Positions 2,336 through 50,199 of a stretch of DNA of 64,000 nt are shown here, in pieces. The notes beneath the pieces were generated by a model. That model had not been told where the DNA came from. It did not search any database and saw only the letters and a list, made by a program, of their open reading frames with translations. Both the position numbers and the translations under genes were made by a program. The DNA comes from Sorghum bicolor (lineage: Eukaryota; Streptophyta; Magnoliopsida; Poales; Poaceae): NCBI RefSeq assembly GCF_000003195.3, contig NC_012878.2, positions 20,834,131 to 20,898,130 on the forward strand, given 5' to 3'. Position 1 is the first letter of the stretch; every line of letters starts with the position of its first letter.

Positions 2336-3369
2336 TGTCGGTGTTTTCCCCCGAGGGGGTCACACCAACAAGTAAATTTGTATGCGTGCTCCCTTTCCCA
2401 GATGGTGATGCAAGAAGACACATAGATTTATCCTGGTTCGGGCAAGAGAAGGCCCTACGTCCAGCGGGGGGGAGAAGTTTGTATTATCTTGCACCTAAGT
2501 GCTTGTATAGGGGCGAATCCAAGCGTTGTATGGAGTGTATGTGTGCTACTGCATATGGGTGTAGTGTCTCTCGTATTCTATTCCTGAGTCCCTCCTTTTA
2601 TAGTTCCAAGGAGAGACCCAGGGTACATGTATAGGTGTCAGAATAGGAGTTGATAGCAGTATGGAGCGCTGACCTACTCGAGGCTCCTGTACCGGCATGG
2701 CCTCGAGCTGTCCCGTCTTACTAGCTTGGTGATGATTACGCGTTCCCCTGCATTCGGCTCTGCGCGCCGTCTTGTACTGGTTCAGCGGTCGCACGCTCGT
2801 ACGGTTCGGCGGCAAATCCGGCGGAGTGGTTGCGGCGTGGCTAGTCAACGTCTGTCCCGTCCTCAGGAAGGAACCATGTTTAGTCGAGGGTCAGACGCCG
2901 TACGATGTCCTGATGTCGGAGCGCTGACCCTGGATACCTCGAGGGGGCCTTGATTAGACGTGCCATCTCTGTTTCCCACGTCCTGACACGCCCTGGGCTA
3001 TTCGGTGGGGAAGGCTGCAAAAAGATCGATGGGACGGATGCCTGTTCCCTATCACGCCTCCCGTGACCCGTGTGTTAGGTGGGGAAGCATCAGGCGCATT
3101 TAATGCCCCGGCTCGCGTGCGCGCGTCAGGCGGCGGGCGGCGTCCTTGCGCTCGACGCCTCCCGGTTCGCGTGAGCCTGTTCCGTATTCGACGGTAACCA
3201 GAGCTCGACGCCTGATTGATTCGCTCGACGCTGCTTCCGTCTTCGAGGCCGTGGCCGTCGATGGCTGCGCATACATACGGATGGAGCGTCGAATCGAGGG
3301 CCTCCCCTTACGTATGGATAACCTTGTTATATGCCTTGGTGAGGGTACCCCTTGTTGATACCCTCGACA
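2336..3369 (-). repeat. Element II 3' LTR
   Basis: In plus orientation it starts TGTCGGTGTTTTCC and ends GATACCCTCGACA; its partner is 27945-28976 and a third copy is the solo LTR at 53218-54253. The part from about 2660 onward is rich in TCGA (14 copies in the LTR by my count, about 4 expected). It is flanked by AGAGA on the outside and by the polypurine tract on the inside. Confidence 0.93.
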
Positions 3370-3382
3370 GTAGCCCCCGAGT
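3370..3382 (-). other. Polypurine tract of element II
   Basis: The minus strand reads ACTCGGGGGCTAC immediately before the LTR terminus TGTCGAGGG. This fixes the element's orientation as minus. Confidence 0.75.
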
Positions 3383-4156
3383 CTCCATTCGAGCGCTGGC
3401 GCTCGAGTGGAGACTTTAGCCTTTACGGTCGATCTTCCGTGGGGGCGCGCGAGCGACCCCGCGGGGGTAGCCCCTGAACCCTCGAGGGTGTTTTTAACTC
3501 CTTCGGGGGTTATTTTGACAAATTCACAGAAAACGCTGTCGACACCAGTGGTGGAAGGTTCTGATCGGCTTTGCCTTACGTGGAGGTTTCGACGTACTCT
3601 CGATAGAGCGAGCGTCTTCCCCCCCAGATTGAGTTCCTAGCGGGTAGTCCAAGTGAGAACCTGTGCCCTTTTCGAGGGGGTCAGCTGTAGCCCGGAGGCG
3701 TTCTCATAAAGCTGGGTTGACATGGTCGGGGATACCGGTCTCATTCGATAGAGTCCAGCGGCTCGATGCCTCCCGTCGGGGGATTCCTCTCGACTGTCTC
3801 GACCCTACCTTGGACATCGCGAGCGAGACTTCGAGGCGGACCCCGATCTTCGACCGCTCGCTGGAGATCCCTGACTCTGGTGCTCGAGATCGGCTGTCGA
3901 ACCCTTTTGGTGGGCCAGCCTGCGACCTCTCGAGGCTTTCGCGGGTATGCCCCTTGGCTTACAAGGGAAGGAAGTGGCCGTGTTGGTTCGCCTTTTCGCC
4001 CGTTGGGCGCACCTTTTTAGGCGGGTGACGTTATGACATCGTATCGGCGTGGAATTCGGAGCGCCCGGCCTGTGAAGGGGGAAAGACTGTTAGGTAGCGC
4101 ATTTATGGGGGGACGTTACCTCATTTCTCGGATTTGTCCATTGGCGGATCTTGGCT
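3383..4156. other. Non-coding stretch between 3' LTR and antisense promoter (element II)
   Basis: I find no convincing protein here. The stretch is very rich in TCGA, mostly as CTCGAG, TTCGA or CTCGA (17 copies in 3370-4140 by eye, about 3 expected). It sits just upstream of the antisense TATA box, so it is the natural place for regulatory sites of that gene. Confidence 0.5.
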
Positions 4157-4164
4157 TATAAATA
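4157..4164 (+). promoter_or_regulatory. TATA box of the element II antisense gene
   Basis: TATAAATA lies 141-148 bp upstream of the ATG at 4305. The leader between them is CT-rich and contains no ATG, so 4305 is the first start codon after the expected transcription start. The element III antisense gene has the same arrangement. Confidence 0.65.
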
Positions 4165-4304
4165 CGCCGCGGCACCGCCGCCATTCTTTCTTCCGCCTTC
4201 CATCTTCACTCTTGCCTTAGCCTTCTTGCCTCCCTAGCTCTCTCGCCGTCTTACGCGCACACGACTCCTCGAGCAGTAGCGGGTCCACCGTTCCTCCGGT
4301 CGTA

Positions 4305-7300
4305 ATGCCTGTAAGACTCGTCGCCGCCGAAGACTGGCGCTCGTCGTCGATGACGGAGCGCCGGTTGTTAGAGCTCGAGAAAGAGGGACTGCTGCGCCGC
4401 CGCACCTCGTTATCATCGCCAGAGTGGATCGCGCCGCCGGCGAGTCACCGGGAGCCCCAGCCGCCCGAGGGCTATGTGGTGTCGTTCGCCAAGTTCCACC
4501 GCCATGGCCTGGGTGCGCCCCCTAGCTGCTTCATGCGGGCCCTCTGCTTCCACTATGGGGTGGAGCTCCAGCACTTCTCCCCGAACGCCATCACCGTCGC
4601 GGCGGTCTTCGCCGCCGTGTGTGAGGGCTACTTGGGGATGATGCCGCACTGGGAGCTGTGGCTCCACCTCTACAGGGGCGAGCTTTTCCATGCCCCCACC
4701 GGAACCACGGGCGTAAGGAAGCCCGTGCGGGCAGGGTGACTCAACCTTGTGCAGAAGACGGGGAAGACGGACAGACCGCGGGAGTACATCCCGGTAGGGT
4801 TATCGACCAACCACGCAGGCTGGGACTCCCAGTGGTTTTACCTTCGGAATGACGACAACCTTCTGCCTTCCTACTCGGGCCGCCTGATCATGGAGCGTCC
4901 AGCGGACTGGACGTACGGCGTCGTCCAAGCTCATCAATCTCGGCTCAACCCCCTCCTCGACGCCATGAAGAAGCTGCGCTCGGAGGGCTTGACTGCCGCC
5001 CTCGTCCTCTCGGCCGTCCATCACCGGAGAGTTCTCCCTTTGATGTCTCGGCCGTTGAGGATGGATGAGATGGGCCCTGGCGTCTCATCTCGGGACCTCG
5101 AGGCATGCCGGATGTCCAACGAGGCTCCGGCGGATGACGAAGTCACGGCCCGAGTCAGGGCTGCAATTGCCGGCGATTTTCAGCCGGAGCATGTTAACGG
5201 CTTCCCCATGAGGCCAGACGTTGGCTCGATCGATCTGGTATGTTTTCTCCATGCGCGCAGCCTCGATTCTGGGTTTCTTTTCTTTCCCTCTCTTTCTCCT
5301 TTCTAAGTCTGCCTTTATTTCGACAGGGACGGATTGACGTTCGGTCCTCGAGGCCTCCGGTAAAGGAGGACGAGGTCGATCGCGACAAACGGCGCCAATC
5401 CGCCGAAAAGCTAAAGTCCGCCAAGGACTCTGCCAAGAAGGGGGAGAAGAAGAAGAACCTCGACCGTCAAGCGTTAGAGGAGCGTCGAGCCAAATCCAGG
5501 CAGAGGGGGGAGCCTAAGGAAGAATCCCCCAACAATGATGACGACGACGACGACAGCGATGATTCCGAGGGGATGGCGTCACGCCTTGACCGAATCCTCG
5601 AGGGTCCATCTCGAGGTGATGTCGACGCTCCTCGGACGGAAGTTCCGACGGGTGGTCCAGGCGGATCCCGCCGTCCGCGCGCCGACACCCCTCCTGCGCC
5701 CGCGGCTGGTCAGGTCGCCCCGCGCCCTCCTCCCGTGCCCAAGACGGGTGGCCACGCTAGGTCCCAGGCGATGGGGCCATTGACTCGTGGTCGCGCCGCG
5801 GCCTCCGACAAAGGAGAGGCCGGTCGTAGGAGCGCCAGTCCCGGCGCCCGCCAGGCGGGAACTGACGCGCCTGGGCCAGCGCCTGCCCTCGAGGGGTCTG
5901 GTGCCCCGACGCGGGGTGGCTCGAGGCCCACCGGTCGGGGCGGCGGGAGGTGAGCTGTTCTCCCTATGGGGTAAGCCTTTTCGAAGTCGTGGCTTTTGTT
6001 TCCCGCCTTTTCTCATATGTTGATCTTTTTCGCGCTCATTTCTTTCTTTTCTCAGGCTAAAGCTGACCCTCGAGCAGGCCCAGCCGTCCATGGCGAAGAG
6101 GCTCAAAGCGGGTGCCGCCTCCAAGGAGCCAGGTTTGTGGCTTACTTTTGGGATCTGTGATGCTCTTGCGTTAACCATCGTAGTTACCGGTCTTTATTCT
6201 TTATTTTGTAGGCTCCTCCGACTTCCAACCTCCAGTAGGCGCTGGGAGTGCTCCGCCTCGTTCCGAGCCCACCACGTCGCTGCCGGCGTGTGGTGAGGCG
6301 CCCCAGACGCAAGTGCCGGAGGGAGCCCCCGAGCCTCCTCGATTGGGGGTCGAGGGGGAACCCATCACCATCAGTGATACATCTGATGGTAACGAAACAA
6401 CTGGAGGCGCCCGCCCTATGGAGGAGGAAACGTCGACCTCTCACGTCGCGGGACCGACTCCCTGGCCCGCCGGCCTCCGAGCCCTCGAGGAGCTGAAGAA
6501 GAAGAGGGAGGAAGATGAAGAACGCGAGCATGAGGCGGCGCGGCAACCGCAGGAGCAGGGCCATAGGCGAGAGCCGCAGGAGCATGAGGCGCAACAACAG
6601 CAACAGCAGCAGCAGGGGGGCCAAGAGGAGGGACTGCTCGAGCCCCCGCCCCAAGGTCCGGCCCAGCCAGTACCGCCGGAGCCGCAAGCGCCCGGTGAGC
6701 AGGAAGAGGATCTGCCGGTGTACGGCCCCCCGACCCCAGCGTGGCTCCTCCCGGGGGCACCTGCCGCGATCCGGGCGGAGCCGGGGCGAGCGGATGGAGT
6801 GGTGGCGCTCGCCTGCATGATGCGCACCCCCACCGACCCCGAGTCCGAGATCAAGAGGACGATCTATGGCATGGATGGGATCGCTCCAGGGTTCCTCCGG
6901 GAGCGTCGGGCATGGGAGGAACACTTTCCCTCCGAGGAGGACGAGATCGGGACGTCGGGGACCAAGGACGGGACCTGGAAGACGGTAGACGACGACGGGC
7001 GGTTCCCGTGCCTCGTCGACCTGTTCCTGCACCATGGGGGCTCCCTCGAGACCGTCGAGGACCTCATCCACGGCGTCAAGGCACAGGCCGACCGGGAGAT
7101 GGAGCACTGGTGCCCCGATCGGATCCGCATCCGGGCTTCCCACGACCCGTCTGAGCCTAACATCTTCCTGGACGATAGGAAGGAGGCGGAGAAGTGGGAA
7201 CACATCGAGGAGCTCCGCCTTTGGATGAAGCATGTGGTGGGGCTCCTCGCAGACGTTATTAACAACAGGCTCGGGCCGGCTTATTTTGTAAGTGTTTTTC

Positions 7301-8581
7301 GATCTTCGATCCTCATGGAGACTTTCGGTTTTGTGCTCTAACCGTTCGATCCTTGGTTCGCAGGATATGAAAGAGACCTCCCGCATCAAGTCTAGTTTCA
7401 TCCATGCCACGAGAGGTGGCTGGGAGCAACTCCCCCTCCTTAAGGATCAACTCCTCGAGTCGCAGGAGAAACTCCTCAAGACTTATAAAGAGCTCATAGC
7501 GCTCGGGGAGGAGAAGAAGGCGAAGGAGGCTGCTTTGGCTGAGGCCCAGGAGGCCTCGAGGAAGGCGGAGGAGGAGACGATGATGCTGCGGGAGTGGGCT
7601 CTTACGGTCGAGGAGGCCGCGTCCAAAGCCTAGGAGGAGGCCCTGTCCTACAAGAGCGTCATTGCAGACCTGGACAAGGAGAAGGGCCTTCTCAAGTCCG
7701 ACCTGGACTCCCTCCGTGACTCCTTCCAGAAGATGAAGGTGGTGTACGTGGACAGTGAGGTCGCCAGGGGTGCCGCCGAGGACGTAAAGAAAAAAGCCCT
7801 CGAAGACCTCGAGGCAGAGCGGGCTCGATCCCGCAGTCTCTCTGACGACGTCGAGCGTCTGAAGGGAGAATTGCTGGAGAAGAGTGGAGCCATTGCTCAG
7901 GCTGGCAAGGTGATCGAAGATCTCCGCGTTGCCAATACTGAGCTGGCACGCTCCAATAGAGAGATCGAGCGTGCCAACACCAGATTGGTCGGCGAGAACA
8001 CGGCCCTGGAGGAGAGCATCAGAGGTATGTTTCCTTTGTCGAATTTCTTTTTCGAGGTGTGCTTGAGTTTTTCCTCAAGCTTCCTTGTATTGGCGTTTAC
8101 AGGGCTCAAGGACGAACTCCTAGCCACCCAAGCCGAGGCCCGTAATGCTAAGACCCAGCTCGAGGCGGAGGTCACTTTGAACCGTCGCGTGCGGATGGTG
8201 ATAAGCGACCTTTCGGCCTCGTGGGAGGTCGAGCCTATGGACGAGTCGAGGGAGGGAGCTCGAGGCGACGCACTGGTCGACCAGCTGTGCTACTTGGGCG
8301 CGACGCTGAGAGACCGAGTGCGGGACGCCCTCCACATCGGGGTGAAGCGGGCGATGGCAGTTATCTGCTCGGGCTTCTCCTATGACATGGAGGTGGTGTC
8401 CCACGGCTTCGTCACCAACATCTCCAAGACCGACGCGGAGAACGAAGAGAGGCTCCACGCCTTGATCGACGACGCGGAGGCTCCTGGAGAGAGGCTGGCC
8501 AAGCTTTTTGAGCCTGAGGTGCTTCCTCCTGAAGCTGGCTCGGGCGGAGGCGAGGGTGGTGAGGGTCGTACCGCGGACTGA
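4305..8581 (+). pseudogene. Antisense six-exon gene of element II (putative gypsy-type-transposon domain plus coiled coil)
   Basis: Exons are 4305-5237, 5327-5949, 6056-6132, 6212-7287, 7364-8024 and 8103-8581. Each intron is 76-106 bp, starts GT and ends AG, and phases match throughout, giving 1282 codons. Residues about 50-125 (GYVVSFAKFHRHGLGAPPS through WELWLHLYRGELF) match the plant domain annotated as 'putative gypsy type transposon' (PF04195-like). Next come a charged K/E/D-rich and P/R-rich linker, a second conserved block in exon 4, and a long heptad-like E/K/L-rich coiled coil in exons 5-6. TGA at 4737 and TAG at 7631 interrupt the frame; both look like point mutations. Transcription would converge on integrase, whose stop is at 9135. 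The biochemical role is unknown. Recognition is from memory of the family. Confidence 0.8.
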
Positions 8582-9134: not shown

Positions 9135-10169
9135 CTAGGGGTAGAATCGACGTAGCTGTTCGATGTTCCATGCGTTGGTGAAGACTGCCCCCTTCTCGTT
9201 CGCCAACTTGTACGTTCCTGGCTTCAGGACCTCGGCCACCACATACGGACCTTCCCAAGGTGGAGTCAGCTTGTGGCATCCTTGATTGCTTTGCCGGCGT
9301 CGTAGGACAAGGTCGCCCACGTTGAGGTCCCTCTTGCGCACGTGCTTGTCGTGGTAGAGTCGAAGTTTCTGCTGATATCTGGCGGAGTTGAGGAGGGCCA
9401 TGTCTCGAGCCTCCTCGAGTTGATCGACCGTGTTTTCTTGAGTCTCCTTATTGGATTGCTCATTGTATGCCTTGAGTCGAGGTGACCCATACTCGAGGTC
9501 TGTGGGGAGGACAGCCTCGGAGCCGTAGACCATGAAGAATGGGGTGTACTTTGTGGCCCTGCTTGGTGTTGTCCTTAGACTCCATAGGACCGAGGAAAGC
9601 TCCTCGACCCATTTCTTGCCGAATTTCTTCAAACGATTGTAGATTCTTGGCTTGAGTCCCTGCAAAATCATGCCGTTGGCACGCTCGACCTGGCCGTTGG
9701 TTCGAGGGTGGGCTACTGCAGACCAGTTCACACGGATGTGATGCTGATCGCAGAAGTCCAAGAACTTTTTGCCGGTGAACTGAGTGCCGTTGCCGGTGAT
9801 GATGACGTTGGGAATCCCAAATCGGTGGATTATGTGGTGAAGAAAAGGACGGCCTGCTCGGAGCGGATGTTGGTGATGGGTCGAGCCTCGATCCATTTGG
9901 AGAATTTGTCAATGGCCACCAGCAAGTGGGTGTACCCTCCTTTCGCCTTTTGTAGAGGTCCTACCAAATCGAGCCCCCACACTGCAAACGGCCAGGTGAT
10001 GGGGATCATCTGAAGAGCGTGGGCGGGCAGGTGCGTCTGCTTGGCGTAGAACTGGCATCCATGGCACGAGCGCACGAGCTCGATGGCGTCCGCCACGGCA
10101 GTTGGCCAGTAGAAACCTTGTCGAAAAGCGTTTCCTACGAGGGTCCGTGGAGCAGCATGGTGGCCGCAA
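9135..10169 (-). pseudogene. Element II integrase
   Basis: Reading down from about 10169 the product has the zinc-binding end (SCHGCQFYAK), the core start WGLDLVGPL with the first catalytic Asp, then IITGNGTQFTG and GQVERANG with the catalytic Glu, then the GPYVVAEVLKPGTYKL region and the end QLRRFYP. The second catalytic Asp, normally in TDNGTQF, is Gly here (codon 9792-9794). A frameshift near 9850 separates the first Asp from the rest, and another near 10165 separates it from RNase H. Integrase joins cDNA to the genome; this copy is inactive. No chromodomain follows, as expected for the Tat lineage. Confidence 0.85.
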
Positions 10170-11300
10170 GTCCCCCGAGTGTAGGTCCTCGATGAGTTTT
10201 CGGCCCTCTTCCATGGTGACACAACGCTGTAAGACCCCCGTCGGGCTTCGTCGATATAGCTCGTTGTCTTCGCCATAGATCACATATGACTTGGCCCGTC
10301 GAGCGATACGACGGGCCTCTGACCAATCTTCCGGCAGTTCGCCGTGTATTAGGCAGTCGAGGTATGGCGTACGCCAGTCGACTGGTCGACCAGGTTGCCA
10401 TTCTACCTCCATTACTTCAGCCACCATCAAGAGTGTGTCATCGGTGTTGGTTGGCTGGGCAGGAGCTGCGTCGATGCCAGGCCCCAAGCCTAAGTTGACG
10501 GATGGCTCGTGGAGATCTCTCGAGAACGCGTCAGGCGGCACCGTGCCCCGAGTTGATGCGATCTTGGCGAGTTCGTCGGCTGCCTCATTGTAGCGTCGGG
10601 CGACATGGACAAGCTCGAGACCATGGAATTTGTCCTCGAGTCGATGGACTTCTTTGCAGTATGCCTCCATTTTCGGGTTGTGGCAGCTCGAGGTTTTCAT
10701 TACTTGGTCGATGACGAGTTGGGAGTCACCTCGGACGTCGAGGCGTCGGACTCCTAACTCGATGGCAATCTTGAGACCATTGACGAGGGCCTCGTATTCT
10801 GCGATATTGTTAGACGCGGCAAAGTGGATCCTGATTATGTACCTCATGTGGATGCCCAAGGGTGAGATGAACAGCAGGCCGGCCCCGGCCCCTGTTTTCA
10901 TGAGTGACCCATCAAAATACATCGTCCACAGCTCCGCCTGGACCTGAGTCGGGGGAAGCTGGGAGTCTGTCCATTCCGCGACGAAGTCTACCAGGGCCTG
11001 CGATTTGATGGCCTTGCGAGGCGCGTAAGTGAGAGTCTCACTCATGAGCTCGACTGACCACTTTGCTATTCTTCCCGTGGCCTCTTTGCTCTGGATTATT
11101 TCGCCTAAGGGGAAAGACGAGACCACCGTGATGGGGTGGCCAAGAAAGTAGTGTCGCAGCTTACGGCGGGCAAGGATGACGGCATAGATTAGCTTCTGGA
11201 TTTGGGGATAACTTGCCTTGGTCTCTGAAAGCACCTCGCTGACGAAGTAGACTGGCCTCTGGACTGGTAGCGCGTGTCCCTCCTCCTGCCTTTCGACCAC
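10170..11300 (-). pseudogene. Element II RNase H and second (archaeal-type) RNase H
   Basis: The first part (YFVSEVLSETKASYPQIQKL, then LRHYFLGHPITVV) is the end of the usual Ty3 RNase H. A second RNase H follows with MYFDGSLMKTGAGAG, NNIAEYEALVNGL and VRGDSQLVIDQV, carrying the D-E-D catalytic pattern, then a NEAADELAKIAS end. A tandem second RNase H is a hallmark of Tat-lineage elements. It removes RNA from the RNA-DNA hybrid during reverse transcription. The piece is out of frame with RT (shift near 11300) and with integrase (shift near 10165). Confidence 0.85.
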
Positions 11301-12355
11301 CACCGCGCGCTGACAACCTGGGTCGTCGACGCAACGTAGAGGAGCAGCGGTTCTGCAGGCTGAGGTGGGACCAGGACTGGTGCTGAGGTCAGCATCTTCT
11401 TCAGCTTTTCGAGCGCTTCCTCGGCCTCGAGGGTCCAAGAAAAATGCTCGACCTTCTTCAGAAGTCGATACAATGGTAACGCCTTTTCTCCTAGTCTCGA
11501 GATGAAGCGGCTTAGAGCCGCCAGGCATCCCGTGACTCTCTGCACACCCTTGATGTCCCAGATCGGCCCCATTCTCGTGATGGCCGAGACTTTCTCGGGG
11601 TTGGCCTCGATGCCACGCTGCGAAACAATATAGCGCAAGAGCATGCCTCGAGGCACGCCGAAAACGCACTTCTCAGGATTGAGCTTGATCTGGTTGGCGC
11701 GTAAACAGCTAAAAGCGATCTTGAGGTCCTGGATCAGGTCCCCTCGCCGCTTTGTCTTGACGACAATGTCGTCGACATAGGCCTCGACTGTCGACCCTAT
11801 GTGTTCACCAAAAACATGGAGCATGCAACGTTGGTATGTTGCTCCCGCGTTTCGAAGCCCGAACGGCATAGTCACATAGCAATACATCCCAAAAGGCGTG
11901 ATGAAAGAAGTCGCGAGCTGGTCGGACTCCTTCATTTTTATTTGGTGGTAACCGGAATACGCATCAAGGAAAGAAAGGGTTTCACATCCCGCAGTAGAAT
12001 CGACAATCTGATCAATACGTGGTAATGGAAAAGGAACTTTTGGACATGCTTTATTTAGACTAGTATAATCGACACACATCCTCATTTTCCCATTCTTTTT
12101 CTTAACTAATACAGGGTTTGCTAACCAGTCGGGACGATGAACCTCCTTGATGAATCCAGCCGTCAAAAGCTTGTGGACTTCCTCGCCAATGATCTTGCGC
12201 TTCTCCTCGTCGAATCGGCGCAACCGCTGCTTCACCGGCTTGGAACCGGCTCGAATCTCCAAGGAGTGCTCGGCGACTTCCCTCGGTATGCCTGGCATGT
12301 CTGAGGGACTCCATGAAAACATGTCGGCGTTTGCACGGAGAAAGTCGACGAGCAC
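11285..12355 (-). pseudogene. Element II reverse transcriptase
   Basis: The product has all RT landmarks in order: ANPVLVKKKNGKMRMCVDY, SFLDAYSGYHQI, TMPFGLRNAGATYQ, the active site YVDDIVVK and LRYIVSQRGIEANPEK, then the connection to RNase H. An in-frame TAG at 12362-12364 separates it from protease, and a frameshift near 11300 separates it from RNase H. It copies the element RNA into DNA. Confidence 0.9.
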
Positions 12356-12361
12356 AGCTTC

Positions 12362-13069
12362 CTATTTGGGGTCGAGATCAGCGCTGATCGTCAGCACCTT
12401 GCCTTCGGAGTTGTTGGGGTCGAGTGGGATCTTCTTGGTTCCTTCTGCCGCCTCGAAGCTGCCCGCGTGGCGCTTGGGTTCTGGAGCCTCAGCTGCCAGG
12501 GCCTCGAGCTTCGCGACGAGCTCGGTGGAGTTTTCGACCGCCTCCCCATACTCGACGCACTCGACGTCGCACTCGTACGCGTGCTCGAAGGAGGAGCTGA
12601 CGGTGATGACGCCTTTGGGACCGGGCATCTTTAGCTTCAAGTAGGTGTAGTTGGGTATAGCCATGAACTTGGCGTAGCCCGGGCGTCCGATGATGGCGTG
12701 GTACGTGCCTCGGAATCCAACCACTTCAAAGGTGAGGGTCTCCTTCCTGAAGTTGGCCGCTGTGCCAAAGCAGACCGGTAAGTCGATTCGACCTACTGGT
12801 AGCGCCTTTTTCCCTGGTACGACGCCATGAAAACCACCGGCGCTTGGTTGGAGCTTCCCTCTATCTATGCCGAGGAGGTCGAGGGTCTTGAGGTAGATGA
12901 TGTTGAGGCTGCTGCCACCATCCATCAGCACTTTTGAGAGCCGGGTGTTGACGATGATCGGGTCGACGACGAGCGGGTAGACACCTGGGGCGACTACCTT
13001 GTCGGGGTGGTCCTCTTGATCGAAAGTGATGGGAGTGCTTGACCAGCTGAGGTACTGGGGCATCGCCAT
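12362..13069 (-). pseudogene. Element II aspartic protease
   Basis: The retropepsin-type active site appears as VLMDGGSSLNIIY (D-G-G-S, a common Tat variant of D-T/S-G), with a C-terminal hydrophobic-Gly motif in AIIGRPGYAKF. It would cut the Gag-Pol polyprotein. It shares a frame with the gag tail upstream and RT downstream, broken only by TAG codons (13121-13123 and 12362-12364). This suggests the parent had one long gag-pol frame here. Confidence 0.85.
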
Positions 13070-13397
13070 TCTTGCCGCGAAGACCTCGCGACGCTCCGTT
13101 TTGCGCTGCCTCGTGGTTAACTAAGTCGAGGGGCCGCCGTAGATCATGTAGCAGTCGTGGACGGCGGGGAAGCCGTCGTCGTCTTTGTTGTCCTCCTTGT
13201 TGCCGCCCTTCTCTTTCTTGGAGTCGTCACGCGCATCCTTCTAGAACCCTAGACCGTCGAAATGCTTTTTCAGCATACGACAGTCCTTGAGCTTGTGGTT
13301 GGCGCCTCCCTTATGGTAAGGGCACGGCTCTTCTAGCATCTTGTCGAAGACGCCTCCCTCCGGGGGGCCTCGAGGCTTCTTTCGTTCCATGGCGGCG
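13070..13397 (-). pseudogene. Element II gag C-terminal part (zinc-knuckle-like)
   Basis: On the minus strand this continues gag after the element III insertion. The product holds CPYHKGGANHKLKDC, a degenerate zinc-knuckle-like motif, then a K/D-rich segment and MIYGGPST. TAG codons at 13241-13243 and 13121-13123 are in frame. The rest of gag lies at 25770-27918. The target duplication CGGCG (13393-13397 and 25765-25769) marks the join. Confidence 0.8.
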
Positions 13398-14091: not shown

Positions 14092-14098
14092 CATCTTC

Positions 14099-14116
14099 TG
14101 GCACGCCCAGTGGGAC
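14099..14116 (+). other. Primer binding site candidate (element III)
   Basis: TGGCACGCCCAGTGGGAC starts 7 bp after the LTR. It begins TGG as a tRNA 3' CCA complement should, but it is not the initiator-Met site TGGTATCAGAG used by the chromovirus and copia elements in this window. Which tRNA matches cannot be decided by eye. Confidence 0.5.
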
Positions 14117-14137
14117 AGATTCAAGATCAAGATCAAC

Positions 14138-17785: not shown

Positions 17786-20700
17786 TGGATAGATTCGCCG
17801 ATGATGGAAAATTAGGCCAGGGATTCACATCGGCCGATGATTTGGTAGAAGTGGATATAGGTAGTGGTGATAAGCCTAGGCCTACTTTTATTAGCGCTAA
17901 ACTAGATCCTGAGTGTAAACGGCAATTAACTAGTTTGTTAAAGGAATATAAAGATTGCTTTGCTTGGGATTATACAGAGATGCCTGGTTTAGACCGATCA
18001 ATTGTTGAACATCGGTTACCCATTAAGTCTGGATTTCGGCCACATCAGCAACCAGCCCGCCGATGTAATCCTAACATTCTACCTGATATTAAGGCCGAAA
18101 TCACTAAACTTATTGAAGCTAAGTTTATTCGGCAGTGTCGGTATGCTGAATGGATTTCCAATGTCGTCCCGGTTTACAAGAAGAACGGGAAGCTTCGGGT
18201 GTGCATTGATTTCAGGAATCTCAATAAAGCTACGCCGATGGATGGATATCCAATGCCTGTCGCCGATCTACTGGTTGATGCTGCGGCTGGCCATCGGGTC
18301 ATCAGCTTCATGGATGGTAATGCGGGTTACAATCAAATATTCATGGCAGAAGAGGATATTCCAAAAACCGCATTCAGGTGTCCTGGTCATGTTGGACTAT
18401 TTGAATGGATAGTCATGACTTTTGGGTTAAGGAATGCCGGTGCTACTTATCAAAGGGCTATGAATTTTATATTTCATGAGTTCATCGGCAAGATCGTAGA
18501 AATTTATATTGATGATGTGGTGGTCAAGTCTGGAGATTTCTCAAAGCATCTTGCCGATTTACGAAGAGTGTTGGAGTGCACAAGGAAGCATGGATTGAAG
18601 ATGAATCCCAACAAGTGTGCATTTGGTGTATCGGCAGGGCAGTTTCTTGGTTTCATGGTACATCAGAGGGGTATTGAAATTAGTCGAAGATCTATTGATG
18701 CTATCAATAAAATAGTGGCCCCTACCAATAAAACCGAGCTCCAATCTTTGATCGGCAAAGTGAATTTTATCAGAAGATTTATATCGAATTTATCTGGGAG
18801 AATTCGTGCTTTCAGTCCTCTTCTTAAATTGAAAGCCGATCAGGAGTTTGTTTGGGGAAAAGAACAGCAGTTGGCTCTAGATGAAATCAAAAGGTATCTA
18901 GTAAACCCTCCAGTTTTAGTTCCACCTCAACAAGGGAAACCCTTCAAATTATATTTATCTACCGATGGATCGGTTATCGGTTCAGCTTTAGTTCAAGAAT
19001 TTGAAGGGAAAGAGAGGGTAATTTATTATTTGAGTAGGAGGTTAATTGATGCTGAAACCAGGTATTCGGCCATTGAGAAGCTGTGCTTATGCTTATATTT
19101 TTCATGTATCAAGCTAAGACATTACCTGTTGTCGGCCGAATGTGCTGTTGTTTGCAAAGATGACGTGGTCCGATACATGCTATCTTTGCCGATTATGAGT
19201 GGTAGAATCGGTAAATGGATTTTGGCGCTGTCGGAGTTCGATTTGCGTTACGAATCGGCTAAGGCGGTCAAAGGGCAGGTTATGGCCGACTTTGTGACTC
19301 AGCATTGCAGTCTAGTGGAAACCTTGGAAATTGCACCCTGGACGCTCTTCTTTGATGGATCTACCTGTGACCGGGGAGCAGGAATCGGCATTGTATTAGT
19401 TTCTCCCAAGGGGAGGAAGTATGAATTTTCCTTGTCGATTGTTGCTACATCAACAAATAATCAGGCTGAGTATCAAGCTCTGATCAAGGGATTGGAGTTG
19501 TTAAGAGAAGTTCGTGCTGATGCTGTTGAAGTATTCGGAGATTCTATGTTGGTTATAAATCAATTGACCGGAAGCTATGAATGCCGGAGTGAAGTTCTCA
19601 TAACCTATTTCGAGAGAAGTATACAACTGTTAAAGGAATTCAAGAACTTCCGATTGGAGCATATTCCCCGATTGCATAATGAAGACGCTAATCGGTTAGC
19701 CCAGCATGCCTCGGGATATCAGCCAATGATTAATGCGACATCGGTAGTCAGTGCCGGTGATTGGAGGGAAGAAATTATTGATTATCTAAAAGATCCATCC
19801 AAAAAGGTTGAAAGACGGGTTCGATTTCAAGCAACCAAGTATGTGCTCCTTGAAAATGAATTGTATTATCGAACTATCGACGGAATTCTTCTCCGATGCT
19901 TGGGTGATGATGAAGCCATAAGTTTGATGGGAGAAATCCATGAAGGAGTGTGTGGAGCGCATCAGTCAGCTTTTAAGATGAAGTGGATGATTCGAAGGAA
20001 TGGATATTTTTGGCCAACCATACTTGAAGATTGTTTTAAATATTTCAAGGGATGTCAAGGTTGTCAAAAGTTCGGTAATATCCAGAGAGCACCCGCATCG
20101 GCTATGAATCCTATAATAAAACCTTGGCCGTTCCGGGGGTGGGCCATCGATCTGATCGGCCAGATTTATCCACCATCTAGCAAAGGGCATAAATTCATTC
20201 TAGTTGCCACTGACTATTTCACCAAGTGGGTCGAAGCTATTCCTTTGAAGAAAGTCACATCGGCCAATATGATTGATTTTGTGAAGGAGCATATTATTTA
20301 CCGATTTGGGATTCCCCAAACGATTACTACCGATCAGGGCACCATGTTCACGTCGGGGGAGTTCGATGAATTCGCAATCGGTATGGGAATTAAAGTGTTG
20401 AATTCTTCTCCTTACTATGCTCAAGCCAATGGGCAGGCCGAAGCGTCTAACAAGGGAATTATCAAGCTTATTAAACGAAAGATTGAAGAAAATCCTAGGC
20501 GGTGGCATACATTGTTGAATGAAGCACTGTGGTCTTATCGGATGGCTTGTCATGGATCAACCAAGGTGTCACCTTATCAATTGGTGTATGGACATGATGC
20601 AGTTTTGCCTTGGGAGATTAAGGCTGGATCTAGGCGATTATCTTTTCAAGATCAATTGGCTGCCGATGATTATGCCACTTTAATGACCGATGAGTTAGAT

Positions 20701-21018
20701 GATTTAGCAGGGCATCGGTTAAAGGCTTTAATGAGTATAGAAGAAAATAAGAAGAGAGTTGCCAGATGGTATGATAAAAAAGTGAAGGCCAAGGAGTTTG
20801 CCGATGGGGATTTGGTATGGAAGTTGATTTTGCCAGTCGGGACTAAAAGTTCAAAGTTTGGGAAGTGGTCTCCTAATTGGGAAGGTCCTTATCGGATAAA
20901 ACGCTCAGCTCCTGGTAATGCCTATATTCTAGAAACTCTCGAAGGAGTTGAATTTCCCAGAGCGTTAAATGGCAAATATTTGAAGAAGTACTACCCCAGC
21001 ATATGGATCGATGCATAA
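17785..21018 (+). CDS. Element III Pol: RT, RNase H, second RNase H, integrase (1077 aa)
   Basis: The frame is fully open. Approximate order: RT at residues 100-300 (SNVVPVYKKNGKLRVCIDF, SFMDGNAGYNQIF, MTFGLRNAGATYQ, active site YIDDVVVK), RNase H at 390-500 (STDGSVIGSALVQEF, RLIDAETRYSAIEKL), second RNase H at 520-650 (LFFDGSTCDRGAGIG, NNQAEYQALIKGL, GDSMLVINQL), integrase at 710-1077 with GAHQSAFKMKW...CQGCQKF zinc site, catalytic D in AIDLIGQIY, D in TTDQGTMFTS and E in GQAEASNKG. No chromodomain follows. All catalytic residues I can check are present, so Pol could be functional. The stop is only 146 bp from the stop of the antisense gene on the other strand. Confidence 0.93.
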   Translation: MDRFADDGKLGQGFTSADDLVEVDIGSGDKPRPTFISAKLDPECKRQLTSLLKEYKDCFAWDYTEMPGLDRSIVEHRLPIKSGFRPHQQPARRCNPNILPDIKAEITKLIEAKFIRQCRYAEWISNVVPVYKKNGKLRVCIDFRNLNKATPMDGYPMPVADLLVDAAAGHRVISFMDGNAGYNQIFMAEEDIPKTAFRCPGHVGLFEWIVMTFGLRNAGATYQRAMNFIFHEFIGKIVEIYIDDVVVKSGDFSKHLADLRRVLECTRKHGLKMNPNKCAFGVSAGQFLGFMVHQRGIEISRRSIDAINKIVAPTNKTELQSLIGKVNFIRRFISNLSGRIRAFSPLLKLKADQEFVWGKEQQLALDEIKRYLVNPPVLVPPQQGKPFKLYLSTDGSVIGSALVQEFEGKERVIYYLSRRLIDAETRYSAIEKLCLCLYFSCIKLRHYLLSAECAVVCKDDVVRYMLSLPIMSGRIGKWILALSEFDLRYESAKAVKGQVMADFVTQHCSLVETLEIAPWTLFFDGSTCDRGAGIGIVLVSPKGRKYEFSLSIVATSTNNQAEYQALIKGLELLREVRADAVEVFGDSMLVINQLTGSYECRSEVLITYFERSIQLLKEFKNFRLEHIPRLHNEDANRLAQHASGYQPMINATSVVSAGDWREEIIDYLKDPSKKVERRVRFQATKYVLLENELYYRTIDGILLRCLGDDEAISLMGEIHEGVCGAHQSAFKMKWMIRRNGYFWPTILEDCFKYFKGCQGCQKFGNIQRAPASAMNPIIKPWPFRGWAIDLIGQIYPPSSKGHKFILVATDYFTKWVEAIPLKKVTSANMIDFVKEHIIYRFGIPQTITTDQGTMFTSGEFDEFAIGMGIKVLNSSPYYAQANGQAEASNKGIIKLIKRKIEENPRRWHTLLNEALWSYRMACHGSTKVSPYQLVYGHDAVLPWEIKAGSRRLSFQDQLAADDYATLMTDELDDLAGHRLKALMSIEENKKRVARWYDKKVKAKEFADGDLVWKLILPVGTKSSKFGKWSPNWEGPYRIKRSAPGNAYILETLEGVEFPRALNGKYLKKYYPSIWIDA

Positions 21019-21164
21019 AAGGTTAAGTGCCGATAACACTCCTATCGGCTGAATTTAAATGTTCAAGGGGCAGACTTAATGTTTCAAAAGATGCCGATAA
21101 CAGTCTTATCGGCTAGACTAAAAGCTAAAAGCGGAGAAACAAAGGTGTGTCGCCGATGAAAGCT

Positions 21165-24100
21165 TCAGATGTTCAGCAGCGCTTGGATTGCGGATATGGC
21201 GCGCAGCCGAATCTGGTTGGCTGTCTCTATCTCTTTGATATCGTCATCGGCAGAACCTTCAATCGGCTTCAGCTTCCTCTTCAGTTGCAGCGCTTTACGA
21301 CCATGGACGTTTCGTTCCTGTTCAAGATGCTTGATGGTCTCCGGCAGTTGACTATCTTCTTGCTGGGCTTGGGACAGGGCGTCTTCTACTTGCTTGAGTT
21401 CAGCCAGCAGAGCTTCTCTTTTTGCCGATAGATCAGACATTTTCTGCTTCAGTGCATCACCTGAGGACTTTAAGATGCCGATGTTCTTATGTTTCTCATC
21501 GGCTAAGAGTTTTTCTTTCATCATCTCCTCAGAGAGCTGGATTTGAGCAGCTCTGTCGGCAAGGCGTCGAGTAGCTCTCTGGTACTGTAGCTGGCGGCTT
21601 TCTAGATGTGCAGCGTGGAAGAGTGCTTCTTCGGCATCGGCAGGAATTTGGCCTCTAAGAGTCTTGAACAGGGCCTTGGCTGGGTCAGAATCGTCGACCA
21701 GTTGGGTTGTGTCTTGATGAAGTATGGCCGATAGCTCCTCCAGCCTAGCTCTGGTTTCTGCCGATACAATTCCAACTGCCCGAGAGGAGCTTACTTCCTC
21801 GCCTTCTTCTTCGAAGATATCAATAGCGAAGGAGAACAAGCTGTCGGGAGAATCTTGTTCCTGAAAATGAAAATGAAATAGGTCAATTTTATGGTCAAAA
21901 CTTCGGCAGATGATACCGATGGAAAAGTGGATGACTTACTTGCTTCAAGGCGATTTCCTGCCTTTGACTCAGAAAGGCCGATGGAGCTGCAGGTTGATCG
22001 GCAAATGTTGCCGATAGAACAATATCGCCTGAAAGAAGACAGGAAGGATTATAAGAATAAATGAAAATAAGTTTATCGGTAGGAGTATTGTTGGGATATG
22101 TTACCCGGAAGAGGAACAACAGTTGTTTGAATTGAGGAAACCGCCGATGATATAACTGGACCTGCCGGGCCAGTTGTTTGTTCACCTACGTCAGCTGACG
22201 TACCTGCCGTTTGAGGTTCTTCTTGCTGAGGTTCTTCCATCTGTGGTGCTTCCTGTATTGATTGAGGAGATGGTGCTTGCTGTGCCTGGACTTCTCGAGG
22301 AGAGGGGGAAGATTCCACCGGGATTGGAGACACCGGAGGAGGAGGAGGAGTTGCCACTTTCTGACGCTTTGTTCCAGTCTTAGCACCTTGGACGCCTTTC
22401 CTCTTTGGCTGGCTAGACTGGGGGGGATCGGCACCTTGGCGTTTGGCTTTTGCCGATGCACCAGTTTGCTGCAACAACGATAAAGAGTTTATGAGCACAG
22501 ATAACCGATATAAAGATAGTCAGCATAAATAAAAAAGGGTTTTAACAGATTGCCTTGAAAGCTTGCGCCAGAGTGGAAGCAGTTACCGTTGGTGATGTCT
22601 GAGTTTTCCTGGTAGTAACTTTCTTGAGACGCGCACCCCGGTGCACGATGGAAGCCAGAGTGGGAGCATTGTGGCCGATTGAGGAGATCGGGCCTGATGG
22701 GAATAAGTCGATCGGCTTGCCACTCCTGCTAACCGATGGGGGGGTGTTGTCAATCTGCAAAAAGAATACAGGGGTAAGTTACCGATGGGAATAGTATTGG
22801 AAAATGAGACATCGGTTTAAAATACTTACAGTGTCGTCAGGGACTTCGTATTCGGGGTCGATCATGCCGCGGTATGAGAGGGCCGATCTGCAGAATAGAT
22901 TCTCCTTCCATTCTGCCCACCATAGCTTGTATGCTTGAGTGATAAAGGCAGCTGGAACCCATTCTGACAGATCTACATCTGTATCGGCATTTGGTGGTAG
23001 CTGGGCTACTCGAGTCCACTCGAGGAAGTTAGCGATGGGTTCTCTGGGCTTTATTACATCGGCATAAGGAAGTGCGATCGGCAATTGGCCGAAAGCTAGC
23101 TGGCGAGCTAATGCCGATGGATTATAAAATTCATAGGTTTGGGGAGAGGTTTTCGTGCTGCCGAAGAAGTTCACTGGTATGGCTCTGGGAGTCACGATTG
23201 CCATCATCACCTCATTGTCCCTATCAAGAGCTTCGTCGAACGGATTGAAGGTCAGAGGGAGCATGCTATCTGGGTCGTCATAAGCCAGCCATGGTCGTTC
23301 ATCTCTGGCCAAACCCTCATACAGCGTTTCGAAGAATCGGCCGATCTGATCCGGAGTGTTCCCTGAACCGGGTAAAACTATAACAGCTTCGCCAAAGTTC
23401 AGGGGGGCACGTGTTGCCGATTCCTCTTCACCCAACACATGGTTCTCGGCTATATCTCTTGGGAAGTGCTGAGAGAACAAGTTGAGATCGAGGCGCTTGT
23501 GCAGGTGCAGATTGAGCCACATATTAATAAACCACCAAGGACCTCCCAAGTTGCCGATAGGTTGGCCGAGAAGGAGTTTCTGGACTACTTGATGAAGAAG
23601 GTGATAAACAGCGCCGAGCAAATAACGGCCGAGAGGAAATTGACCACCGCTAGCCAGTCTTTCTGCTGCCGATAGATAGACAGAAGTCGGTCCTGCCGAT
23701 CGACCACAGAATACAAACTTGTCTAGCCACATGTTCAGAAAAGTGGTTTGTTCCTTTATGGTGACAGGCCCTCTCCCGCGGTACTTCTGGATGTACCCTG
23801 ACCAGCCGCCGATAGCGCGAGTCTCCACTTTGGCACTGGGGGCGGTATCAAAAAAGTGGGTGCTATCGGCAGAAGATATGTCTAACCCAGTAAGCATGGC
23901 TACATCGGCAAGGGTAGGAGAAGCAGGGCCGTGGCCAAAAACAAAAGCGTTGAGAGTGTCTGACCAAAAGTAAGATGCGGCTATCAGCAATGACTCGTTC
24001 CTGTGCATATCGGCAATGGACAGCCTAATGCATTGAGCTAATTTCCTCTCACCCCATTGAACTTCATAAGAGTTGCTGACCCTCAAGAACCAGTCTTTCC

Positions 24101-24432
24101 ACCCTACAGTAGGGCTAGGCCAAGAGCGAAAGGTGTCCTTCCATAGATCTAGAGCAAAGTTTTCAGCTCTAAAGGGAATCCTGTTGGTTTCTGCGTTGAT
24201 AAGGTCGGTTGGATCTGGATCCCCTAGAGGGCCGAGGCATTGAAGATGTGGTTGATCGGTAGGAATGACAATTTTATTGGATAACTCCTGGTGTTTTGGG
24301 GAATAAAGATACAAAGAAAAAGGAGAAGGAAAATATTCGGTAAGGTAAATCGCAGATGAACAGGAATGCAGGAAAAAGGTACAGCAGATGAGATGGAAGT
24401 CTGACCTCAGGGACGACGAAGCCAACGGCCAT
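21165..24432 (-). CDS. Antisense six-exon gene of element III: plant-mobile-domain-like protein (944 aa)
   Basis: Minus-strand exons are 24432-24406, 24287-22830, 22754-22554, 22468-22105, 22028-21940 and 21860-21165. All phases agree and there is no internal stop. Donors are GT except intron 3, which fits a GC-AG intron; a nearby GT there would break the frame. ATG 24432 is the first ATG after the TATA box. Exon 2 (residues 10-495) resembles the 'aminotransferase-like, plant mobile domain' family: WPSPTVGWKDWFLRV, AFVFGHGPASPTLADVAML, FLNMWLDKFVF. Exons 3-5 are P/Q/S-rich with basic patches (PKRKG, KRQK) that could be nuclear signals. Exon 6 is a long E/Q/K/L-rich predicted coiled coil. Mobile-domain proteins such as Arabidopsis MAIN act in gene silencing; that this one has a chromatin role is inference. 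Confidence 0.85.
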
Positions 24433-24581
24433 CTTGTCGTGAAGGGGACGCTGGAAGACGCCGGAGTTGATGAAGAAGAATGCTTGTCGGAGATCTTGAG
24501 GATTGAGAATGGCGCCGCCGCTGGAAAAGTGAAGTTGGATGGCAGAATGATGTAATGGGGGAGGAGTACCCAAGAAGGAAC

Positions 24582-24589
24582 TATTTATA
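24582..24589 (-). promoter_or_regulatory. TATA box of the element III antisense gene
   Basis: The minus strand reads TATAAATA, 150 bp before the ATG at 24432, with no ATG between. It lies about 480 bp inside the 3' LTR, so the gene has an internal promoter separate from the LTR and reads back toward pol. Confidence 0.65.
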
Positions 24590-25059
24590 GGGCAAGATGG
24601 ACAAGGGCAAATCTGACTTATTTCTTTGCCGCATCCGAGAAACCCGAGGGTACTCAAGTGGATATGGTAACTGTTCGCACGATAATCCAGGGATTGTGCA
24701 GGTGATTTGACAGGAAGCGGTCATTATCTAAAGATATTTTACTGTGCGCGATCTCCTGGTCGGTCCATCGGTGATATTCTATAACGGTCGTCCTGCCGAT
24801 GGGCGGATAGAGGGGAAGTAACCGTTTTTGCGAATATCCTGGGCAGAGCATCGGCAGATCTTTGTAACGGTATTGTTGCCGATGTACGACTAAGAGAGAT
24901 GCCCGTTTGGGAAGTTGTGGATTTCGAGGGATCTGCGGAGGATTAGGATCAGAGTTGCCCAGATTGAGGTTGTCGGTTACCAGATTAGGAGCATTAATTG
25001 CGGAGAAGACATCATTACTGCAGAGAATTTCGGAGCATTAATAGTTTTATACTCCGAAA
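24590..25059. other. Putative upstream regulatory region of the antisense gene (element III)
   Basis: I see no protein. The stretch separates the antisense TATA box from the polypurine tract and contains several GCCGAT/ATCGGC hexamers (for example near 24797, 24850 and 24879). Confidence 0.4.
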
Positions 25060-25071
25060 CTGGGGGGCATG
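25060..25071 (+). other. Polypurine tract of element III
   Basis: CTGGGGGGCATG lies immediately before the LTR start TGTTGACACC. It confirms plus-strand orientation. Confidence 0.75.
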
Positions 25072-25764
25072 TGTTGACACCATTTTTGGGCACGTGTCCA
25101 GGATGGCAGGACAGGGTGGCAGTACGATGCGGGTTGCTGGTAAGGATGGTTGCCGATGAGGGAAAGGTTGAATGTGACTAAGTCCTCAGACAGTAATATG
25201 GTGCCGATGACCAAGTAAAAGGGTCTGCCGATGACTATGGCAAGGGGATTGCCGATGACGCGAAGGAGGAGTCCGGAAGCTGCCAGTTGTCATGTGGAGG
25301 AATTTCGGTTTGTCACGATGGATGGTTTTATTATTTCCTTATGTTATTCGTATCGTTTTGTATACGGGTTCCGTGTAATTTGGAATTCGAATTCTAATCG
25401 TGTCTGGTCGTAGCTCTTTGAACAGGGTATAAATATAAGCCCTAAGACCTTGTAATCAGGATATCTATCAATCAATCAAACACACATTTTTTTTACTCAT
25501 ATTCCAGCATCTACTTTTCGACGACTTCGTCATACGTTTTCTTTTTGTTACGAGTTCTTAGGAATTCGTCGACTCAAGCTCGGCGTATCCTCAAGTTCCG
25601 CGTGAGTACCTCTTAGCCGTGACATCCGGGCGTATCGCTGTTGTCAGGACTAAAGTATTCGAGTTATCACCTTTGCCGATAGTAAGGTCAAATCGGCTGG
25701 CACGCCTTAACGTTTGGATCGGGTATTAGCCCTTTGTGTTTGCAGACTAGTTTTTGCATCAACA
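25072..25764 (+). repeat. Element III 3' LTR
   Basis: This is the partner of 13398-14091. Differences I see are T/C near the start, A/T and G/A further in, G/A before the T run, and one fewer T in that run. It is followed by the duplicated target CGGCG, then element II gag resumes. Confidence 0.95.
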
Positions 25765-25769
25765 CGGCG

Positions 25770-27918: not shown

Positions 27919-27924
27919 GCAGGA

Positions 27925-27942
27925 CCCCTACCTGGCGCGCCA
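27925..27942 (-). other. Primer binding site candidate (element II)
   Basis: The minus strand reads TGGCGCGCCAGGTAGGGG, 2 bp inside the 5' LTR. Like that of element III it starts TGGC and is not the initiator-Met type; the exact tRNA is undetermined. Confidence 0.55.
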
Positions 27943-27944
27943 AC

Positions 27945-28976
27945 TGTCGGTGTTTTCCCCCGGGGGGTCACACCAACAAGTAAATTTGTATGCGTAGTCC
28001 CTTTCCCAGATGGTGATGCAAGAAGACACAGAGATTTATCCTGGTTCAGGCAAGAGAAGGCCTTACGTCCAGCGGGGGGAGAAGTTTGTATTATCTTGCA
28101 CCTAAGTGCTTGTACAGGGGCGAATCCAAGCGTTGTATGGAGTGTATGTGTGCTACTGCGTATGGGTGTAGTGTCTCTCGTGTTCTATTCCTGAGTCCCT
28201 CCTTTTATAGTTCCAAGGAGAGACCCAGGGTACATGTATAGGTGTCAGAATAGGAGTTGATAGCAGTATGGAGCGCTGACCTACTCGAGGCTCCTGTACC
28301 GGCATGGCCTCGAGCTATCCCGTCTTACTAGCTTGGTGATGATTACGCGTGCCCCTGCATTCGGCTCTGCGCGCCGTCTTGTACTGGTTCAGCGGTCGCA
28401 CGCTCGTACGGTTCGGCGGCAAATCCGGCGGAGTGGTTGCGGTGTGGCTAGTCGACGTCTGTCCCGTCCTCAGGAAGGAACCATGTTTAGTCGAGGGTCA
28501 GACGTCGTACGACGTCCTGATGTCGGAGCGCTGACCCTGGATACCTCGAGGGGGCCTTGATTAGACGTGCCATCTTTGTTTCCCACGTCCTGACACGCCC
28601 TGGGCCGTTCGGTGGGGAAGGCTGCAAAAAGATCGATGGGACGGATGCCTGTTCCCTATCACGCCTCCCGTGACCCGTGTGTTAGGTGGGGAAGCATCAG
28701 GCGCATTTAATGCCCCGGCTCGCGTGCGCGCGTCAGGCGGCGGGCGGCGTCCTTGCGCTCGACGCCTCCCGGTTCGCGTGAGCCTGTTTCGTATTCGACG
28801 GTAACCAGAGCTCGACGCCTGATTGATTCGCTCAACGCTGCTTCCGTCTTCGAGGCCGTGGCCGTCGATGGCTGCGCATACGTACGGATGGAGCGTCGAA
28901 TCGAGGGCCTCCCCTTACGTACGGATAACCTTGTTATATGCCTTGGTGAGGGTACCCCTTGTTGATACCCTCAACA
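27945..28976 (-). repeat. Element II 5' LTR
   Basis: This is the minus-strand 5' LTR, partner of 2336-3369, flanked outside by AGAGA (28977-28981). It ends CCTCAACA where the other copy has CCTCGACA. Most differences between the two are C/T or G/A transitions, as expected from cytosine methylation and deamination. Confidence 0.93.
28202..28209 (-). promoter_or_regulatory. LTR promoter TATA box (element II)
   Basis: The minus strand reads TATAAAAG in the last quarter of the 5' LTR, a plausible promoter for the genomic RNA. The same sequence occurs in the 3' LTR near 2594 and in the solo LTR near 53477. Confidence 0.5.
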
Positions 28977-42107: not shown

Positions 42108-42163
<56 letters not shown>

Positions 42164-48837: not shown

Positions 48838-48839
48838 AT

Positions 48840-48851
48840 TGGTATCGGAGC
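48840..48851 (+). other. Copia primer binding site
   Basis: TGGTATCGGAGC lies two bases after the LTR and is nearly identical to the initiator-Met tRNA complement TGGTATCAGAGC. Confidence 0.8.
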
Positions 48852-48873
48852 CTGTTCTTGATCCTGGGAGAGA

Positions 48874-50130: not shown

Positions 50131-50199
50131 CCGCCGCGTTCCTAGACTTCGCTGAGCCGCGCGCATGCGTCTTCCATGGTGACGCCAGCGACGAGGTCA

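Follow-up and report, generated by a model that had tools for sequence, protein, structure and literature searches.

In the Arabidopsis VANDAL transposons, which are MULE elements, the density of a short motif goes together with the finding and demethylation of the transposon's own family by its protein VANC21; the motif given in this account is YAGTATTAY for VANC21, and the motifs for VANC6 are AGTTGTCC/AGTTGTAC (PMC5735166). Another described group comprises retrotransposons of the Tat lineage with antisense open reading frames (ORFs), such as Ogre, with a plant mobile domain (PMD), and Retand, RIRE2, and Grande, and the accounts concerned assign no known function to these ORFs (PMC6317226, PMC7264820). 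We herein analyzed a stretch of 64,000 nucleotides of Sorghum bicolor (contig NC_012878.2, positions 20,834,131 to 20,898,130; hereafter, the window), in which two Tat-lineage Ty3/gypsy long terminal repeat (LTR) retrotransposons, designated elements II and III, are each saturated with a short DNA word of their own, namely, CTCGA/CCTCGAG in II and GCCGAT/ATCGGC in III, and each carry an antisense gene region.

Three nested LTR retrotransposons make up the first 40 kb of the window, with III lying within II and II within I. Element II (2336..28976, minus strand), which is interrupted by III, has LTRs at 2336-3369 and 27945-28976 that differ by 22 substitutions over 1032 columns and a target duplication of AGAGA. 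Element III (13398..25764, plus strand) has TG...CA termini, a 5-bp target duplication (CGGCG), and an LTR pair with 4 substitutions over 695. In both elements, a second RNase H domain is located between RNase H and the integrase, as in the Tat lineage, and the antisense gene region occupies the space between pol and the 3' LTR, which measures 4.1 kb in III and 5.8 kb in II. The antisense ORF at this location matches PF10536 in III, as in Ogre-type elements, and PF04195 in II, as in Retand-type elements, assignments that refer to gene content alone and not to phylogeny. The same gene content, namely, a dual RNase H and, between pol and the 3' LTR, an antisense gene of the PMD or Transposase_28 kind, is found in the Tat elements with antisense ORFs, the available accounts of which do not describe a saturating family-specific word (PMC6317226, PMC7264820).

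The word GCCGAT/ATCGGC was found 93 times in the 11.7 kb of element III with one LTR counted, whereas an order-1 Markov model predicted 5.4 copies (z 37.8), and it was the top 6-mer of the element; the best 6-mer z in 20 dinucleotide shuffles did not exceed 5.5. With an order-2 model, 99 copies were observed in the whole element against 11.8 expected. The word occurs in the LTR, gag, protease, pol, antisense gene, and spacers, and when each element part was compared with 200 dinucleotide-preserving shuffles, its count surpassed every shuffle in 9 of 11 parts, both coding and non-coding ones, by which a dinucleotide bias was rejected as its source; the 186-bp gap between gag and protease contains no copy. 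The 5' LTR (13397..14092, plus strand) has 6 copies (shuffle mean 0.3, maximum 3), all 6 of which are kept in the 3' LTR (25071..25765, plus strand), which also contains 6. The counts quoted in an earlier note on this DNA, made from its letters alone, were reproduced (6 in the LTR, 13 in 14138-15840, and 9 in 17785-18640), and the enrichment withstood the dinucleotide-matched controls proposed there. When segments were taken singly, GCCGAT was the top 6-mer in 5 of 8, and in the protease, aRH-integrase, and 3' untranslated region (UTR) segments the top word was TGCCGA or CCGATG (with complements), which overlaps the extended word TGCCGATG. Of the CpGs in III, 132 of 499 are in or touch RCCGAT, and the observed/expected ratio of CpG is 0.80 with RCCGAT included and 0.66 with it excluded.

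Five ORFs of element III allowed the contribution of codon use to be assessed: the gag ORF (14081..16837, plus strand; PF03732), the protease-region ORF (17024..17785, plus strand; role assigned from its position and by eye), the pol ORF (17785..21018, plus strand; reverse transcriptase, RNase H, second RNase H, and integrase by Pfam, in the order RT_RNaseH 384-485, RVT_3 523-642, and integrase 782), and two antisense ORFs, one with a PMD (22779-24425) and one that is coiled-coil-like (21165-21839). In 1000 synonymous-codon shuffles per ORF, the observed count was never reached in any of the five (0 of 1000 each), with 23 copies against a shuffle mean of 4.9 in gag, 6 against 1.4 in protease, 19 against 4.3 in pol, 8 against 1.8 in the coiled-coil-like ORF, and 15 against 2.4 in the PMD ORF. 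Possible sites were then defined as places at which some synonymous spelling of the encoded protein yields the word. The word fills 71 of 128 such sites, while codon use predicts 9.9 when taken outside the motifs and 13.4 when taken from all codons; the respective figures by ORF are 23 of 41 in gag (3.2 expected), 6 of 9 in protease (0.9), 19 of 43 in pol (3.1), 15 of 23 in the PMD ORF (1.7), and 8 of 12 in the coiled-coil-like ORF (1.0). This fill rate of 0.55 exceeds that of every other word among the 797 of six letters for which 60 or more possible places exist (median 0.06), and the three words that rank next are overlapping or variant forms of the GCCGAT motif. Codon use was thereby ruled out as the source of the word in III, which bears out for this element the statement of the earlier note that codon use alone does not explain the motifs.

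The proteins themselves also offer the word an unusual number of places. The 128 possible sites compare with 64.2 when residues were shuffled within each protein (sd 7.6, maximum 87 of 300 shuffles), the excess was present in each of the five ORFs, and the control word CCTCGA showed none in the same proteins (81 possible sites against 89.5 shuffled). The word in III thus seems to have shaped the amino-acid sequence, which is evidence rather than proof because residue shuffling also destroys ordinary local protein structure.

Copies in the coding DNA of III are balanced between orientations, with 35 in gene sense and 36 antisense, by which recognition at the RNA level was ruled out; together with the ORF-wise synonymous shuffles, this balance also excluded an effect confined to one frame or one strand, which the earlier note had named as a reason to abandon its proposal. 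Spacing is close to random (coefficient of variation 1.11 against 0.98, sd 0.10), with neighbors in all orientations, and a fixed spacing was rejected. The flanks of the copies are unrelated (mean identity 0.259, against 0.250 at random sites) and Tandem Repeats Finder (TRF) detected only two short arrays in the whole 26.6-kb stretch, by which tandem or dispersed duplication was ruled out as the origin of the word. The unrelated flanks, near-random spacing, and strand balance indicate that most copies in III arose independently and that a reader of the word should see double-stranded DNA. Since the word is present in nearly all parts, on both strands, at a codon cost and an apparent protein cost, selection for the binding of a sequence-specific protein all along the DNA best explains the pattern in III. 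As a separate observation, 7 gaps of 15-19 bp between neighboring copies were noted in 13397-25070, against 3.1 under uniform placement, which may reflect a preferred spacing of paired sites.

Were the word written by a process of mutation or copying, such as reverse transcription or gene conversion, both strands and coding as well as non-coding DNA would likewise be affected. We know of no process that writes an exact six-base word, and the one-base neighbors of GCCGAT are not generally depleted, with most of the 17 other than ACCGAT at 0.7-2.3 of their expectation (lowest 0.43); with the flanks of the copies also unrelated, we regard this process as very improbable. ACCGAT is the only one of the 18 one-base variants that is strongly raised (30 against 4.7 expected), a graded variant as would be expected of a binding site, and the word is sharp, with little flank information beyond (T)GCCGAT(G).

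RCCGAT resembles RCCGAC, the DREB site of AP2/ERF proteins, and a host DNA-binding protein may read the word for transcription or for a chromatin opening that benefits the element. The sharp motif with R at its first position is consistent with such a reader, as is a mild excess in III of GCCGAC (7 against 3.2) and GCCGAA (12 against 5.3). However, the saturated form is GCCGAT and not GCCGAC, promoter activation needs sites in the LTR and not across gag, pol, and the antisense ORFs, and the word of element II is unrelated; a host reader is accordingly considered to be improbable.

In element II with one LTR, CTCGA was found 157 times against 49.5 expected with an order-1 model, CCTCGA 78 times against 14.3 (z 16.9), and CCTCGAG 46 times against 4.6; no 6-mer of 20 shuffles had a z above 5.7. 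The density of CTCGA is 9 to 18 per kb in all seven parts, and TCGA, for which the previously quoted counts were also recovered (14 in the LTR at 2336-3369, with 13 in the other LTR, 17 in 3370-4140, and 14 in 9135-10000), was above the maximum of the dinucleotide-matched shuffles in 8 of 9 parts, the exception being the 327-bp part 13070-13396 (4 copies, shuffle maximum 5). There are 50 TCGA in 9135-12355 (shuffle mean 18.3, maximum 27) and 32 CCTCGA in 4749-8581 (5.9 and 13, respectively). The integrase, RNase H, reverse transcriptase, and protease-region frames of II span 9135..13069 (minus strand), with RT_RNaseH followed by RVT_3 within one frame and the integrase in the next, the match of the latter being partial and below the cutoff. 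Synonymous shuffles reached the TCGA count in 0 of 1000 cases for the integrase, reverse transcriptase, and RNase H frames and in 3 and 2 of 1000 in two antisense ORFs; the reverse transcriptase and RNase H frames overlap at 11189-11669, and these two tests are thus not fully independent. The view that codon use does not suffice consequently holds for TCGA in 5 of 7 ORFs of II, but not for the protease (69 of 1000) or the antisense ORF 4749-5306 (70 of 1000).

Composition, codon use, or repeats as the origin of the counts have the most to offer in element II, in which GC richness accounts for a part of the signal: 86 CCTCGA compare with 15.0 expected at order 1 and with 27.7 at order 2. Across eight coding frames of II, however, CCTCGA fills 39 of 104 possible sites, with 14.6 expected when codon use is taken outside the motifs and 16.3 when it is taken from all codons; the corresponding figures for TCGA are 97 of 293, with 44.9 and 55.2 expected. 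In III, this explanation is contradicted by the dinucleotide shuffles, the synonymous shuffles, the possible-site test, and the absence of duplication, and we see next to no likelihood that it accounts for the words. The motif of II is real, weaker and looser than that of III; the evidence from coding DNA is decisive for III and moderate for II.

A diverged lone LTR of the II family (53218..54253), which is nested in the copia-like element V, is 84.5% identical to the LTR of II, contains 16 TCGA, and served as the sole relative in this comparison. It retains 12 of the 14 TCGA of II, compared with 39 of 72 other NCGN (one-sided p 0.025); differences were seen in 3 of 56 motif columns and in 157 of 977 others (p 0.017). 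In the reverse direction, 12 of the 16 TCGA of the diverged LTR are kept in II, and pooling both directions gave 24 of 30 against 77 of 138.

The two words are specific to their elements. III contains 42 TCGA and II contains 7 GCCGAT, both below the summed shuffle means (approximately 50 and 9.5, respectively), in agreement with the earlier observation that neither element shows the enrichment of the other so strongly. In the gypsy elements I and IV, no 6-mer exceeded the shuffles (z 4.4 and 5.5 against shuffle maxima of 4.8 and 5.8), and a 7-mer of IV was slightly above them (6.3 against 5.6). Element V (48512-54783; type assigned by eye from its frames) has a mild word, ACCAAG/CTTGGT (z 8.3 against 5.7), with 15 copies against 2.3 expected when both LTRs are counted and 13 with one LTR. 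TA repeats dominate at 38.8-48.5 kb, and nothing exceeded the shuffles at 60.4-62.3 kb for k of 5 and 6, with a 7-mer z of 7.0 against 6.9. Strong saturation within the window is hence limited to the two Tat elements. Between the last pol frame and the 3' LTR, there is no gene-sized room in I (1204 to 1171) or IV (59959 to 60075), a pattern in line with a link of the words to antisense genes and just as well with one to the Tat lineage; element I, the outermost of the nest, is a gypsy element with a Tf2-1-like SH3 domain above the curated cut-off and a Chromo domain just below it at its integrase end (Pfam). No related Tat element was recovered from viral contigs, and scanning genome contigs yielded only one gypsy-like contaminant. 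This was a gypsy-like reverse transcriptase (33% identity; L001:2374-3465) on a 6.4-kb contig of a Nitrospinota metagenome-assembled genome, perhaps a eukaryotic contamination, which has 4 GCCGAT and 6 CCTCGA by plain count with no shuffle control.

The antisense gene is the sole non-standard gene seen in II and III. In III, it is represented by a PMD frame (22779..24584, minus strand; PF10536, E 2.6e-15), a proline-rich basic frame (22073..22519, minus strand) that did not have a Pfam match and contains a possible nuclear localization signal recognized by eye, and a coiled-coil-like frame (21165..21935, minus strand), for which Pfam matches to coiled-coil families were weak and all below the cutoff; the latter two are probably the middle and last exons, and the three frames may be exons of one gene. 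In II, a Transposase_28 frame (4221..4739, plus strand; PF04195, E 3.9e-15) is followed by further frames in 4740..8581 (plus strand), namely, 4740-5306, 5198-5953 (basic), 6184-7341, and 7634-8581 (coiled-coil-like), which had no Pfam match above the cutoff and are probable exons, presumably of a single gene. No match between the antisense frames of II and III was obtained by tblastn at E 1e-4, with the Transposase_28 frame left out, and a comparison of the PMD frame of III with PDB sequences yielded no significant match.

We propose that each of these Tat elements has been under selection for numerous copies of a short double-stranded DNA word over its full length. The word may be bound by a protein that recognizes this specific DNA sequence, for which the most likely candidate is the product encoded by the antisense gene of the same element. 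The candidate readers would be the PMD, basic, and coiled-coil frames in III and the Transposase_28, basic, and coiled-coil frames in II. A dense local accumulation of the word would mark self DNA, and the bound protein may keep the element open or hypomethylated in a manner resembling VANC and VANDAL. The distribution of the words makes it highly probable that a protein reads the motif, and the reader is probably family-specific because II and III bear different words. We somewhat favor the antisense gene product as this reader. An anti-silencing outcome, and with it the explanation as a whole, is put forward by analogy and more tentatively, at slightly below an even chance. The nuclear localization reported for the antisense protein of Grande (PMC7264820) and the account of PMC5418596, in which host PMD proteins take part in silencing, the PMDs of retrotransposons fall into separate clades, and an anti-silencing role is speculated for MULE-captured PMDs, are among the points in favor of this proposal.

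The short words known as DNA uptake sequences saturate self DNA in bacteria, on both strands and with genes included; as they belong to a bacterial uptake system, their likeness to the words of II and III is an analogy only. Together with target immunity, they are the analogies for another possibility, in which a protein of the element, be it the antisense product, Gag, or integrase, recognizes the word on double-stranded cDNA, where it would serve compaction, import of the pre-integration DNA into the nucleus, or protection from self-integration. A word that is present over the full length and independent of the strand would allow the cDNA to be recognized at any point. A nuclear role in retrotransposition has also been proposed for the antisense ORFs in PMC7264820. 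Chromoviruses and other LTR elements, however, manage without such a word, as seen for I and IV in the window; a role on cDNA is regarded as unlikely.

Several points weigh against the proposed anti-silencing system. The evidence comes from one copy of each family. Antisense gene and Tat lineage are confounded, and a link of the words to the former is inseparable from a link to the latter because the controls without an antisense gene, the gypsy elements I and IV and the copia-like element V, belong to other lineages. The Pfam scans of the antisense frames of II and III found no recognized DNA-binding domain and no VANC domain (DUF1985/DUF287), and AlphaFold2 run without an alignment on the PMD frame of III gave a mean pLDDT of 34 and no usable structure. 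The 3'UTR of III has 3 GCCGAT, a count equal to the shuffle maximum and not a significant enrichment. The signal of II is partly compositional and lies within the synonymous shuffles in 2 of 7 ORFs, as described above, and its shift at the protein level is weak (104 possible sites against 87.6, sd 9.7, a number reached by 22 of 300 shuffles). The LTR pair of II shows no better retention of TCGA (12 of 14) than of other CpGs (69 of 71), and of the 61 four-letter words that occur 12 times or more, 4 are slightly better conserved than TCGA in the diverged LTR. The words, moreover, stand in mixed orientation and in coding DNA, unlike the VANC motifs, and the host PMD proteins MAIN and MAIL1 promote silencing (PMC7156037, PMC5418596).

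The comparison with VANDAL accordingly has two sides. Both systems comprise a mobile element that has an additional gene and a dense short motif of its own, which differs between related families; the VANC motifs are described as mainly non-coding, tandem, in a single orientation, and shown to bind VANC (PMC5735166), whereas the words of II and III lie within LTR retrotransposons, in coding DNA and both orientations, and form no tandem arrays. The system of II and III may work in a VANC-like manner and is not a member of the VANC family. The self-recognition hypothesis of the earlier note is therefore partly supported, in that the motifs are real and family-specific, are independent of the strand in III, and coincide with an antisense gene region in both elements, but the VANC precedent that it invoked does not extend to their placement. 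MAIN and MAIL1, with PP7L, also bear comparison with III: these host PMD proteins are tied to the silencing of transposable elements, and expression data associate them with a short "DOWN" promoter motif, the direct recognition of which is a hypothesis in these accounts; silencing is promoted there and not blocked (PMC7156037, PMC5418596).

A broader interpretation, which we offer as a possibility and would not yet favor, is that these are private DNA-address systems, in which each Tat family with an antisense gene writes its own word throughout its sequence and bends Gag and Pol to accommodate it, the antisense protein recognizes and opens entire copies, and word and reader diverge together between families. 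If so, the persistence of unrelated kinds of antisense genes (PMD and Transposase_28) in these lineages would be explained. If anti-silencing is indeed the outcome, a VANC-like mechanism would have arisen also in LTR retrotransposons, which make up a major part of plant genomes, and the readers of the words would represent addressable tools for chromatin opening. A saturating family-specific word provides a ready bait for assaying the antisense proteins as self-recognition proteins.

Two minor features were noted elsewhere in the window. A perfect self-complementary stretch of 56 bp is located at 42108-42163 within the region rich in TA repeats, and direct duplications of approximately 165 to 435 bp, which are 92% identical, are present at 62755-63719.

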